Positions 41,222 to 46,101 of a stretch of 64,000 bases of DNA are shown one piece after another; position 1 is the stretch's first letter; every line of letters starts with the position of its first letter. Under the pieces are notes generated by a model. That model had not been told where the DNA came from and did no database searches. It saw only the letters and a list, made by a program, of their open reading frames with translations. The position numbers and the translations under genes are program-made. Source of the DNA: an uncultured Flavobacteriales bacterium (GTDB taxonomy: Bacteria; Bacteroidota; Bacteroidia; Flavobacteriales_D; Sanyastnellaceae); contig CAJQLF010000018.1 in NCBI GenBank assembly GCA_905479115.1, positions 1 to 64,000 of the forward strand, written 5' to 3'.

Positions 41222-42118
41222 ATGAAAGAAAGAGGCATCGCACAGCAGTTCTCGATTCGTGATCTAGAGCACTTCACGGGTGTAAAATCGCACACTATCC
41301 GAGCCTGGGAGCAGCGGTATGGTTTATTGGAGCCCAAAAGGACTCCGACCAAAATTCGATACTACAGCGGAGATGATTTGAAAAAATTATTGAATGTGAG
41401 CTACTTGATGCATCACGGATTCAAGATTTCTAAAATCGCTGGCATGGAAGAGCAGGTCCTTCTGGATCAGGTTCAAATGCTTCAATTAGAGGAAGGGGGA
41501 GTGAGCGCGGTTTTCAGCAACCTGAAGCTGAGCATGCTCAACTATGATGAAGCTCTTTTCCGTGAAGTTGTCGGGGCGTATTCGGACGAGCACGGCCTGG
41601 AAGCGACCGTTTTGGATGTGTTCCTTCCTTTCCTTTCTCAAATAGGTGTGTTGTGGCTGACCAATAGCATTTGTCCTTCTCAGGAGCATTTCATTAGTCA
41701 TCTCATGAGACAAGAGTTACATGCCGCAGTCGCTCAGTCTTCCCTTCCTAATTCAGGCGATCAGCCATCGGTTATCTTGTACTTACCCGAACGTGAAATA
41801 CATGACATAAGCCTCCTTTTCGTTCATTATCTGTGTAAGACCCGCGGAGTGAAGAGTATTTTCTTAGGCTCTAATGTGCCCTTTGCAGACTTAATAGGAG
41901 TGGGAGAGCAGTTTCCAAATGCCCGATTTGTTTCATACTGCACGACGCATCCTTCCTCCAACGAGGCTGCGGCGTATGTGGATATGGTAGAAGCGGAGTT
42001 TGGGGACACACAAAATAAATTTCTCTTGGGGGGGCGAGTCTTCGAGGGCGTGCAAGGGTTATCCTGTGTGGAGACTGCCGCGAACGGTCAGGAGTTGGTA
42101 GCCAATTTGTTCGGGTAA
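41222..42118 (+). CDS. CarH-like MerR-family regulator with B12-binding-type domain
   Basis: The 298-residue protein has a MerR helix-turn-helix (about 8-80, VKSHTIRAWEQRYG), a helical bundle and a C-terminal Rossmann-like cobalamin-binding domain (about 183-298). The W-x9-EH motif of adenosylcobalamin photoreceptors is present (Trp145, Glu155, His156), and the lower-ligand region is E192-I-H194-D-I-S197, with Ser replacing the usual Gly. CarH-type proteins bind DNA as tetramers in the dark and release it on light. The ECF sigma gene lies 134 bp downstream with an inverted repeat between them. No carotenoid genes are present. Confidence 0.85.
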   Translation: MKERGIAQQFSIRDLEHFTGVKSHTIRAWEQRYGLLEPKRTPTKIRYYSGDDLKKLLNVSYLMHHGFKISKIAGMEEQVLLDQVQMLQLEEGGVSAVFSNLKLSMLNYDEALFREVVGAYSDEHGLEATVLDVFLPFLSQIGVLWLTNSICPSQEHFISHLMRQELHAAVAQSSLPNSGDQPSVILYLPEREIHDISLLFVHYLCKTRGVKSIFLGSNVPFADLIGVGEQFPNARFVSYCTTHPSSNEAAAYVDMVEAEFGDTQNKFLLGGRVFEGVQGLSCVETAANGQELVANLFG

Positions 42119-42156
42119 TTTGCCGGACACACCTTGTTTCGATATCCCGTATTAGC

Positions 42157-42227
42157 CAAAATGTTTAAACTTTTTTGATAAAAGTTAGACAAAACTTTGG
42201 AACATAGGACATTTTGTTTAATCTTTG
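42157..42227 (+). promoter_or_regulatory. Promoter and putative operator of the ECF sigma factor gene
   Basis: The interval holds a perfect 7-bp inverted repeat AACTTTT/AAAAGTT (42168-42174 and 42180-42186). A third half-site AACTTTG at 42193-42199 overlaps a TTTG -33 element. An outer inverted repeat CAAAATGT/ACATTTTG lies at 42157-42164 and 42209-42216. The -7 box AATCTTTG (one mismatch) is at 42220-42227, 20 bases after the -33 element. The layout fits repression by the MerR/CarH-like protein encoded just upstream. This is inferred from position. Confidence 0.5.
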
Positions 42228-42252
42228 CCTCGTAACGTTAAACAAACAGACC

Positions 42253-42756
42253 ATGAGTTCCATTGAATTTAATAGCCTCCTCGTTGCGAATCGCTCCTTT
42301 CTAAACGGTTTTGCTTTCGGTTTTACCCGAGATTCACAAGATGCAGAAGATTTGATTCAGGACACCATGGTCAAAGCCCTGCGTTACAAGAACAACTTCA
42401 AGGAAGGAACCAACATTAAGGGATGGTTGTACACCATCATGCGAAACATCTTCATCAATAATTACAAACGAAAGAAGTTTCAAAATACCATCTTAGACAC
42501 GACAGACAATCAGTATTATTTAAACTCTGGGTCGATGCAAGCTGATACGGTCACATCTGCAATCAATGAGCAAGACATCCTCAGCACCATTGAAGAGTTG
42601 AAACCAGAGTTCAAGGTCCCTTTCAAAATGTTTATGGAGGGATACCATTACGATGAGATATCAGAAGAATTATCCATCCCAATGGGTACGGTGAAGAGCC
42701 GCATTTTCCATGCCCGGCGTAAGCTGGGAGCCCAGCTCCAAGCGTTCCGGTATTGA
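42253..42756 (+). CDS. ECF-type RNA polymerase sigma factor
   Basis: The 167-residue protein has sigma region 2 (DAEDLIQDTMVKALRY and WLYTIMRNIFINNYKRKKF) and region 4 (YDEISEELSIPMGTVKSRIFHARRKL), joined by a short linker. Region 1 is absent, as in ECF sigma factors of Bacteroidota. The preceding CarH-like gene is the likely regulator. No anti-sigma gene follows. The ATG at 42253 is chosen because the longer start at 42214 would lie inside the promoter. A terminator follows 38 bp after the stop. Confidence 0.93.
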   Translation: MSSIEFNSLLVANRSFLNGFAFGFTRDSQDAEDLIQDTMVKALRYKNNFKEGTNIKGWLYTIMRNIFINNYKRKKFQNTILDTTDNQYYLNSGSMQADTVTSAINEQDILSTIEELKPEFKVPFKMFMEGYHYDEISEELSIPMGTVKSRIFHARRKLGAQLQAFRY

Positions 42757-42793: not shown

Positions 42794-42826
42794 AACCAAT
42801 GGTGATCTCCATTGGTTTCTTTTTTT
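42794..42826 (+). terminator. Rho-independent terminator of the sigma factor gene
   Basis: A 9-bp stem (42794-42802 with 42809-42817) and six-base loop are followed by TCTTTTTTT. Confidence 0.8.
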
Positions 42827-42861: not shown

Positions 42862-45800
42862 ATGATTCATTTGCCTAAGTCATTCTTTTCGGGGGTTCTC
42901 TTCCTCTCTTCGGCTTTTGCCCTCATGCCGAATCAAGCAATTTCTCAACTCGAAGTTGAAACAAACTTGACGCTTGAAGAATACGTTAACGATATTCTCC
43001 TTGGCAGCGGAATCCAAGCCACGAATATCACGTATACGGGAGGGACCAACCAGCTTGGATACATGACAGGGGCTGAAGACGTGTTCTCAATCAATTCAGG
43101 ATTGATCTTGAGTTGTGACGTTGCAGAAAACTTAGAATGTCCGACAGACTTTCTGACCTGCGACGGATGCTTAGGGGGGGGATTCAATGATCCTGATTTA
43201 TTGGACATTGCAAACTCTGTCCCACCCTTGATTGGCGAATCTTTTTCTGTCAATTCTGTCAATGATGGGTGTGTGCTTGAATTCGACTTTGTAGCGGCAG
43301 GTGATACAATCAGCTTTAATTATGTGTTTGGGTCTGATGAGTACGAGACCTGGATTAATACGCAATACAACGATGTTTTTGCTTTTTTCTTGAGTGGACC
43401 AGGAATCACGGGGCCATACGATAGCCCTGCAGGATTCCCAGATGGGTCAGTCAACATCGCAGGCGTTCCGGATACGGACCCGGTTCTTCCGATTACCATT
43501 TCTTCGGTAAACTCGGGTACAAACCCCGAATATTACATCGATAATCAGGGGGGGACAGATGTCTGCATCAACGGATATACCGTTCCTTTTACGGCGATGC
43601 ACCCGGTTGAATGTGGAGAGACCTATCACATCAAACTAGCCATCGCAGACGGTTCAGATACAGCGCTCGAGTCCATTGTGGTCTTGGAAGAAGGCTCCTT
43701 TGAATCCAATGCGGTTGTTCAAATTGATTTGTCCATTGATGTGGGAGGACCAGATGCGAATACGATTTATGAAGATTGTGGACAAGCTACGCTGACGTTT
43801 GAGCGCCCCGTGGAGACCATTCTCGAAATTCAAGAGATGGTATACATCGATTACGGCAACAGTGTAGCGACCAATGGGGTTGACTATGGTCAGCCCCAGC
43901 CTGACGGGTCTTTGCTGCCTCTGCCGGATTCTGTGGTTTTTGAGCCTTTTGTGAGCATTGTGGAATTTGTATTGGTCGCGGATATTGATGGCATAGATGA
44001 GGGGCCTGAACTGGTGGAGATGCAAATTGAGAACGTCGCGGCTTGCAACGGAGGTGGTCTGACAACTTACTTCAGTTTTTACGTGGCGGAAGATCCGCCT
44101 CCTTTTGTGGTGGAAGATTTTTTCACGACCATATGTCAAGGGGATGAGATTGAGGTAGGCCCTGTTGTAACAGGAGGATACGGAAACTACACATTTGATT
44201 GGGATTGTCCTGAAGGGGATGATGAGGCATTATTGTTGATGGCACCTCTGGACGACTGGTCGTGTTTTGTAACAGTAGGTGACACATGTGATTTAGCCCT
44301 GAACCCTCAGACGGTCGAAGTGGCCATTGAAGTATTGGAATTTCCACCACTGGAAATCGCAATCAATGAAGAGGGGCCCATTGTTTTGGAATGCAACGGT
44401 TCGGCGGATATTAGCTCAACAGCATCAGGCGGGGATGGCGTTTATACGTACACCTGGTCGGACCAAGATGGGGCGAATCTGTGGCCTTCTTGGTGGGATC
44501 CAAGTATCCTCACGTTAAGCACTTGGGCCAACGCCGATGAGGTGTTCGTGACCTTGACGGACGGTTGTGGTTTCGAAGTAGTTGACAGCATTGAAGTTGA
44601 ATACAACATCCCCTCGATTGAAATTACAGTGGATGATGAGGTGACCGTGTTGTGCAACGACCCCTTCACAGTCGCGGCTTCAGCCAGTGGCCAGGCTCCG
44701 TTTTTTTACACCTGGTTGAATGGCAACCAGTGGTTAGATTTTGACAATACGTTGAATTGGCAAACCAGCACCGATGCAACGTTAACGTTACAAGTGTCGG
44801 ACAATTGCGGTCAATCCGAGGAAGCAATCGTCCAGATTACAGTTGATGCTCCTGACGTTGAAGTTTCTTTGCCTCAAAGCTTGGTCGGACCGTGTACAGA
44901 AGTTTTCGATGTCATGGCAAGCGTCACCAGCGGGTCAGGCGGCTATCAATACACATGGTATCAGAACGGAATCAACTTGAATGAATCCGGTTCGAGCATC
45001 GACGTACAACTTTCGGAGTCCAGTACGATTTCCGTGAATGTTGACGATGGATGCGGTCAAAGTGGCAGCGCGAGCGCAATGGTCACCATTGATAATCCGC
45101 CTTTGGTCATCGAGTTGGGTCCCGATGTGTACGCGAGTTGCATCGATTTCACCAACATTCCGGTGGATATTGTCAGTGGGTCGGGTGCATACGCGTATGA
45201 ATGGTCAGTGAGCGGTGAGCCATACGATCAAGGTCCTGACATTACCGTTCAATCCTATGGAACGATTCCAATTTCCGTTTCGGTCACCGATGGATGCGGT
45301 GGAGCGGACGAGGACTCATTGGTGTACCACATTCCCGATATTCCGCTCGGCGTCCAAATGACTCCCTCTCAGACGATTTGCGCTGGAGATGGTATCTCAT
45401 TGGAAGTGGAGGCCACTGGAGGAGAAGATGGTTTTGTTTACTTCTGGCCTACGCTTGATGCATATGGCCCGGTACAATACATCACCCCGCTGCAGTCGGC
45501 TGTTTATCCTGTTGTTGCAACAGATATTTGCGGGGATGCGATTGATACTTCCACCAATATTGAAGTTCAGTATCTGTTCAGCGACTTCGTGGCGAGCATG
45601 TCTGAGACGGATGAAAATCTTTACACGTTCCGCGCGACTCCTTCACCGGAAGAGCCATTTGATGGCGCTTATTCATATCACTGGGATTTCGGTGATGGTT
45701 CTACAGCAGATGAACCGATAACGACGCATCTCTTTGACGGTTTGAGTGATTATACGGTTTCATTGGACATCACGAGTTCGGTGGGCTGCACAAATCAAGC

Positions 45801-46101
45801 CTATACCGTCGTTCGCGGCCCCGTTCTTTTGTATGTGCCAACGGCATTTACGCCGAACAATGATGGAATCAACGATGGATTCAAGGTGATTGGAAGCCAA
45901 ATCATGAACTATGAAATCTGGGTCATGAACCGCTGGGGCGAATTGGTTTTCCACAGCACGAGCTTAGAGGATGTATGGGTTGGGGATGTGCAAGGAGGGA
46001 CGCATTATGCTGAAAATGGCATCTACAATTGGCTGATTCGCTTGAAAGGATTTAACACCGATGCGGAGGAGTATTCTGGCACGCTTCAATTGATGCGATA
46101 G
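42862..46101 (+). CDS. Giant T9SS type B surface protein with choice-of-anchor L domain and Ig-like repeats
   Basis: The 1079-residue protein has a signal peptide ending near QAISQ. A choice-of-anchor L domain (about 35-295) follows, with YVFGSDEYETWINTQYNDVFAFFLSGPG. A Calx-like region comes next, then about five Ig/SprB-like repeats of about 90 residues, each ending in motifs such as DGCG or DNCGQ. A PKD domain (about 940-990, YHWDFGDGSTADE) precedes a CHU_C-type C-terminus with PTAFTPNNDGINDGFKV, WVMNRWGELVFHS and NGIYNWLIRLKG. It is probably exported by the T9SS and attached to the surface or secreted. It may be an adhesin or motility-related protein. Confidence 0.85.
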   Translation: MIHLPKSFFSGVLFLSSAFALMPNQAISQLEVETNLTLEEYVNDILLGSGIQATNITYTGGTNQLGYMTGAEDVFSINSGLILSCDVAENLECPTDFLTCDGCLGGGFNDPDLLDIANSVPPLIGESFSVNSVNDGCVLEFDFVAAGDTISFNYVFGSDEYETWINTQYNDVFAFFLSGPGITGPYDSPAGFPDGSVNIAGVPDTDPVLPITISSVNSGTNPEYYIDNQGGTDVCINGYTVPFTAMHPVECGETYHIKLAIADGSDTALESIVVLEEGSFESNAVVQIDLSIDVGGPDANTIYEDCGQATLTFERPVETILEIQEMVYIDYGNSVATNGVDYGQPQPDGSLLPLPDSVVFEPFVSIVEFVLVADIDGIDEGPELVEMQIENVAACNGGGLTTYFSFYVAEDPPPFVVEDFFTTICQGDEIEVGPVVTGGYGNYTFDWDCPEGDDEALLLMAPLDDWSCFVTVGDTCDLALNPQTVEVAIEVLEFPPLEIAINEEGPIVLECNGSADISSTASGGDGVYTYTWSDQDGANLWPSWWDPSILTLSTWANADEVFVTLTDGCGFEVVDSIEVEYNIPSIEITVDDEVTVLCNDPFTVAASASGQAPFFYTWLNGNQWLDFDNTLNWQTSTDATLTLQVSDNCGQSEEAIVQITVDAPDVEVSLPQSLVGPCTEVFDVMASVTSGSGGYQYTWYQNGINLNESGSSIDVQLSESSTISVNVDDGCGQSGSASAMVTIDNPPLVIELGPDVYASCIDFTNIPVDIVSGSGAYAYEWSVSGEPYDQGPDITVQSYGTIPISVSVTDGCGGADEDSLVYHIPDIPLGVQMTPSQTICAGDGISLEVEATGGEDGFVYFWPTLDAYGPVQYITPLQSAVYPVVATDICGDAIDTSTNIEVQYLFSDFVASMSETDENLYTFRATPSPEEPFDGAYSYHWDFGDGSTADEPITTHLFDGLSDYTVSLDITSSVGCTNQAYTVVRGPVLLYVPTAFTPNNDGINDGFKVIGSQIMNYEIWVMNRWGELVFHSTSLEDVWVGDVQGGTHYAENGIYNWLIRLKGFNTDAEEYSGTLQLMR

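Follow-up and report, generated by a model that had tools for sequence, protein, structure and literature searches.

What is controlled by the CarH/LitR-type MerR regulator and the ECF sigma factor encoded side by side at positions 41222–42756 of the window (the whole stretch of DNA analysed, 64,000 nucleotides of contig CAJQLF010000018.1 from an uncultured Flavobacteriales bacterium) was the question raised by this locus. The answer regarded as probable is a two-step light switch for carotenoid synthesis, in which MerR acts on sigma and sigma on crtI–crtB. In the dark, an AdoCbl-bound MerR oligomer would occupy two operators, O1 and O2, and block the sigma gene's housekeeping promoter; green or blue light would cleave the Co–C bond, upon which the oligomer would dissociate and leave the DNA. 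The sigma factor would then be made and would bring RNA polymerase to the crtI–crtB cluster on another contig, which has an ECF-type promoter. This proposal is built on features observed in the sequence, namely the operator pair, the promoter geometry, the cobalamin signature and fold, the unique and conserved ECF-type promoter of crtI and the AdoCbl genes.

The MerR gene (41222..42118, + strand; Pfam MerR_1 and B12-binding_2) encodes 298 aa, with the domain layout of CarH and class I LitR: an N-terminal MerR DNA-binding domain with the recognition motif R-x-W-E-Q-R-Y (41249..41452, +; Pfam residues 10–77) is followed by a C-terminal cobalamin domain, composed of a four-helix cap (41519..41713, +; Pfam B12-binding_2, residues 100–164) and a Rossmann half (41756..42115, +), the latter supported by residue conservation and its fold match to TtCarH. 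In the recognition motif, R27, W29, E30 and R32 were invariant in 55 Bacteroidota homologues and Y33 was kept in at least 90%. The W-x9-EH motif of CarH and class I LitR is formed by Trp145 (codon 41654–41656, +) and Glu155–His156 (codons 41684–41689, +), and the lower-ligand His194 (codon 41801–41803, +) is followed by Ser197 (codon 41810–41812, +), all placed where the initial annotation had put them. Among the same homologues, W145 and H156 were found in 55/55 and E155 in 53/55, and in the Rossmann half E192 in 55/55, H194 in 53/55, G216 in 53/55 and P220 in 54/55; most pocket residues (GxxW, EH, ExH, GxxxP) were kept throughout the window's family. The best PDB sequence matches were TtCarH/LitR (E ~3e-20). 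An AF2 model (pLDDT 90.7) gave CarH (5c8e) as its top VIA match with Z 17.7 and superimposed on the TtCarH cobalamin domain with an rmsd of 2.4 Å over 194 residues; the light receptors photocobilin and CtMerR scored Z ~16, above MetH at 13.9. Domains, residues and predicted fold agree with the candidate CarH-type photoreceptor paired with an ECF sigma that had been proposed earlier.

Departures from the classic motifs were also found. In D/ExHx2G/P...SxT/V...GG, E192-x-H194 and GG270–271 are present, the Gly is replaced by Ser197 and SxT/V reads SxC. Three of the four SignatureFinder elements (GxxW, EH, GxxH, GxxxP) are retained, GxxH being RxxH with R191; the glycine of GxxH makes its contact through the main chain. 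Position 191 is Gly in 25/55 homologues and otherwise mainly Asn, five homologues having Arg; at position 197 either Gly or Ser occurs. Cobalamin binding could be altered by R191 and Ser197. At the position of His132 in Thermus, MerR carries Leu146 (commonly Gln or Leu among the 55), which excludes a bis-His light end state. Leu146 is compatible with light sensing, because CtMerR of Chloracidobacterium and the photocobilins, also devoid of a His132 equivalent, respond to light (PMC11796333). Scored against the CarH equivalog NF052513 (NCBIfam), MerR reached 89.6 bits at a curated cut-off of 400 and is a homologue outside this narrow equivalog.

The genome encodes a PduO adenosyltransferase as well as methylmalonyl-CoA mutase, an IcmF-like mutase and MetH (named from their sequences), so that the AdoCbl machinery is in place; no match to a cobalamin riboswitch was obtained. 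We infer that MerR binds AdoCbl and responds to light. The alternative that survives best, although unlikely, is a CarA-like, B12-independent regulator that has kept the fold and still drives sigma and crtI, and that is released by another signal, be it singlet oxygen, an antirepressor or a partner photoreceptor. B12-independence is known for Myxococcus CarA (PMC9304148), class II LitR works with a LOV partner (PMC9758184), and Arg191 and Ser197 deviate from the classic motif. However, CarA is devoid of the Trp of W-x9-EH, which is present in MerR and in 55/55 homologues, class II LitR is devoid of the Rossmann half, which in MerR is present and well modelled, and the encoded AdoCbl machinery likewise speaks for a cobalamin-dependent sensor.

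The ECF sigma gene (42253..42756, + strand; 167 aa; Pfam Sigma70_r2 and Sigma70_r4_2) starts with its ATG at 42253, 134 bp beyond the end of the MerR gene, as originally described, and adjoins MerR in the family f1 loci L031–L059. Its product has regions 2 and 4, lacks region 3 and scored above the cut-off of NCBIfam TIGR02937. Alignment of the MerR–sigma gaps revealed two 30-bp inverted repeats, 53 bp apart, which lie on either side of the sigma gene's housekeeping promoter: O1 (42162..42191), TGTTTAA-N16-TTAgACA with one mismatch, and O2 (42215..42244), TGTTTAA-N16-TTAAACA, the sole perfect copy in the whole genome, where ~0.009 would be expected. The promoter consists of a −33 box TTTG (42196..42199, +) and, 19 bp further on, a −7 element TAATCTTTG (42219..42227, +), which is conserved in the family loci and close to the sigmaA consensus TAnnTTTG (PMC9723704). 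O1 stops just short of the −33 TTTG; the −7 box lies inside O2, which also reaches over the predicted transcript start. The pair recurred at a separation of 52–54 bp in 24 family loci, and the spacing within the repeat was very specific: of 37 perfect sites in 40 loci, 35 had the 16-bp spacer. The AACTTTT/AAAAGTT repeat pointed out in the initial annotation does exist, but it is the weakly conserved inner part of this larger site, and it was rejected as the operator core since its inner bases vary among relatives; the supposed third half-site around 42194–42200 is the −33 box itself, and the actual second operator sits downstream, over the −7 box.

Since O2 extends over both the −7 box and the predicted start, and since a 19-bp spacer is ordinary for the phylum, the arrangement has repressor geometry, and MerR would repress rather than activate the sigma promoter. 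The opposite sign, activation by MerR in the light, would be in keeping with the Streptomyces LitR–LitS system, in which LitR action at litS is described as positive regulation (PMC12705666), but is quite unlikely given this geometry.

Copies of the operator, searched for with the conserved core, were found at no other promoter of this genome but did occur in relatives. At up to 2 mismatches, the genome contained O1, O2 and one intragenic match, the reversed control giving 19; this third candidate (C24:31077, 2 mismatches) lies within coding sequence and was taken as a chance match.

Downstream of sigma, a T9SS-sorted choice-of-anchor-L surface protein is encoded (42862..46101, + strand; NCBIfam choice_anch_L, Pfam CHU_C). 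The initial annotation was right to call it a T9SS surface protein, but not a giant one: with a likely start at 42862 it is large, at most 1100 aa. It is very unlikely that the MerR–sigma pair serves to control this neighbour, even though the order MerR–sigma–T9SS is retained in most of the family and operators are found at fasciclin surface genes in relatives. An intrinsic terminator with a 9-bp stem followed by a T run (42794..42817, +) lies between the two genes, and no operator precedes the T9SS gene (own genome searched at up to 2 mismatches), so the gene is probably not a target. The gene order cmk–porQ–lon–glmU-like / MerR–sigma–T9SS–MFS as a whole is largely retained in the family, and it may simply be old, because synteny is just as strong for lon, porQ, cmk and the MFS gene. 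The hairpin at 42794–42817 was also present in the genus relative L033, other relatives differing, and in some genera of the family (L042–L046) the sigma–T9SS gap extends to ~190 to 900 bp instead of ~30–100. The light-controlled surface programme suggested earlier is, given terminator and missing operator, unlikely here, but plausible in relatives by way of operator-preceded fasciclin genes.

Carotenoid genes are indeed not adjacent to the pair, as had been remarked, but they are present in the genome on another contig, C8, and are equipped with a dedicated ECF-type promoter, so that the usual target is available after all. The C8 cluster contains crtI, the sole crtB of the genome, a short gene of unknown function, idi, crtD, a cruF-like gene, a crtZ candidate and a CarR-type lycopene cyclase gene; crtI matched NF058655 and crtD NF042421, and the small gene read as putative crtZ was assigned from position and sequence, with no family match. 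The crtI promoter corresponds to the element TTGAACAA-N14-TTGTTTT, which at 0–1 mismatch gave a single match in the genome. All crtI starts examined in the genus had a −35 of TGAACA/GAACA type and a TTGTT −10 with 14 bases between them, ending 6 bases before the ATG, and all perfect matches in the genus sit upstream of the crtI–crtB cluster. Outside the genus, the element (no more than 2 mismatches, no further than 80 bp from crtI) was found in 25/25 scored family genomes, compared with 2.4% in a shuffle null; four further family genomes were left unscored. The MerR operator was absent from those 25 crtI regions, and in two family genomes with MerR directly before crtI the operator occurred at crtI instead of the ECF-type element. 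Taken together, it is strongly suggested that this sigma factor reads the crtI promoter. Matches at 2 mismatches were rejected as targets, most of them lying within coding sequence and the rest at or near gene edges without the promoter-like placement of the crtI element, and at 3 mismatches the total was only modestly above the reversed control; weaker sigma targets besides crtI may exist in this genome.

Two side observations concern crtI starts. In L108 (244–290), and at the same place in genus relatives, the ECF-type promoter ends ~6 bases short of the start codon, pointing to a leaderless mRNA for crtI. In L293 (G026:C64), crtI has a perfect ECF-type promoter with a perfect MerR operator immediately downstream, an apparent double control.

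MerR was found in 105/120 relatives, nearly always as a single copy. MerR–sigma–crtI–crtB was contiguous in 17 of 120 loci and MerR directly preceded crtI in 31, in sister families and other members of the phylum. The operator (at most 1 mismatch) was present in the gap in 17/17 of the contiguous loci, in 39/42 with MerR–sigma only and in 12/31 with MerR–crtI. Genomes without MerR had no perfect operator (0/10) as compared to 51/70 with it (Fisher p ~1e-5, kinship ignored). The window's own genus has the perfect operator at most once or twice per genome. Against the proposed light switch stands the near-complete genome G023, in which crtB and an adenosyltransferase were present and MerR was not detected. 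G085 and G107 each encode two MerR paralogues of the window's type, G085 with six perfect operators.

In Flavobacteriales relatives, perfect operators (0.02–0.19 expected by chance per 3 Mb) precede a wider set of genes, and none of the outlying operators scored for ORF overlap lay within an ORF of at least 60 aa. They were located before Bac_rhodopsin genes in G103, G086 and G093 (L317:3021–3848, L325:2255–3064 and L326:2144–3004, respectively, 12–49 bp upstream of the ORF start), before GTP cyclohydrolase I (folE) in G087 and, together with PTPS, in G098, and before photolyase or cryptochrome-like genes in G036 and G085. Fasciclin genes were directly preceded by a perfect operator in G026, G028, G036, G040, G043, G075, G085, G086 (twice), G087, G092 and G098, 11 genomes in all (loci L298, L299, L301, L302, L303, L308, L311, L322, L323, L324, L332 and L337); all encoded proteins carry a T9SS tail except a short one in G086. 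In L298, the operator is common to the fasciclin gene and a divergent photolyase gene. Operators in L330 and L315, upstream of DXS (G087) and HMG-CoA reductase (G098), touch isoprenoid supply in two different pathways, and glutathione peroxidase, CIA30 and short-chain dehydrogenase genes were also operator-preceded. An independent parallel to the photolyase and folE sites is found in Pseudomonas putida, where light induces phrB, folE and cryB through class II LitR (PMC9758184). Least probable of the alternatives, and highly unlikely, is a sensor of AdoCbl supply instead of light, whose holo form would repress sigma until B12 shortage relieved it: any AdoCbl-dependent repressor would behave so and the organism has AdoCbl mutases, but in relatives the targets belong to light-linked functions (carotenoid, rhodopsin, photolyase, folE), with no B12 gene among those examined. 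From these sites, we tentatively propose, as a possibility that falls a little short of an even chance, that TGTTTAA-N16-TTAAACA is the B12-photoreceptor operator code across Flavobacteriales, uniting carotenoids, rhodopsin, photolyase and folate synthesis, isoprenoid supply and T9SS fasciclin adhesins in one light regulon that has shrunk to a sigma-to-crtI relay in the window's genus.

A close precedent for the proposed light switch is the LitR–sigma LitS–crtE cascade of Streptomyces coelicolor (PMC12705666), with which it shares a two-step logic, a B12-type MerR and an ECF sigma whose product transcribes carotenoid genes. It differs in phylum, in the inverted-repeat operator pair, the repressor geometry and the unlinked carotenoid cluster, and in a sigma factor that would recognise the crtI element given above; the circuit probably follows the LitR–LitS–crt logic known from Streptomyces, with inverted repeats as a new kind of operator. 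Thermus thermophilus CarH and class I LitR share with MerR the fold, W-x9-EH, the lower-ligand His, the AdoCbl setting and the carotenoid outcome, whereas MerR has Leu146 for His132, Ser197 for Gly and Arg191 in GxxH, and would act on a sigma gene. The known CarH operators (PMC9304148) consist of directly repeated 11-bp units containing TnnACA; the window's half-sites, TAAACA, match TnnACA yet form inverted repeats around a 16-bp spacer. Like MerR, CtMerR of Chloracidobacterium thermophilum (8JBS, PMC11796333) has no His132 equivalent in its MerR-type B12 photoreceptor domain; its VIA Z is ~16 and its identity only 16%.

B12-type photoreceptor genes adjoin carotenoid genes in many Bacteroidota. 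In the parts of the reports consulted, Flavobacteriaceae strain GF1 has a MerR gene with a B12-binding domain that precedes its carotenoid genes (PMC6974559), and the carotenoid cluster of Nonlabens spongiae includes a MerR gene (PMC11855829); by context, both probably belong to the same protein family, and those parts reported no sigma factor, operator, mechanism or wider regulon. MliR of Bizionia was considered as an orthologue and set aside, its paper mentioning neither cobalamin nor CarH (PMC9478572). In the open-licence literature searched, no operator, regulon or mechanism was described for B12-type photoreceptors of Bacteroidota, which is weak evidence of novelty. The mechanism in a light-induced Chryseobacterium is called unknown in its report (PMC7064467), and, for marine proteorhodopsins, a 2009 single-cell study termed the conditions of expression 'enigmatic' (PMC2668756). 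The operator code supplies a precise testable site, and the candidate regulator makes the question of proteorhodopsin expression testable. If true, the code would give flavobacterial rhodopsin and surface adhesion a light sensor at the level of transcription, and the operator link from this sensor to T9SS fasciclin proteins would mean that light can alter the surface display of these bacteria.
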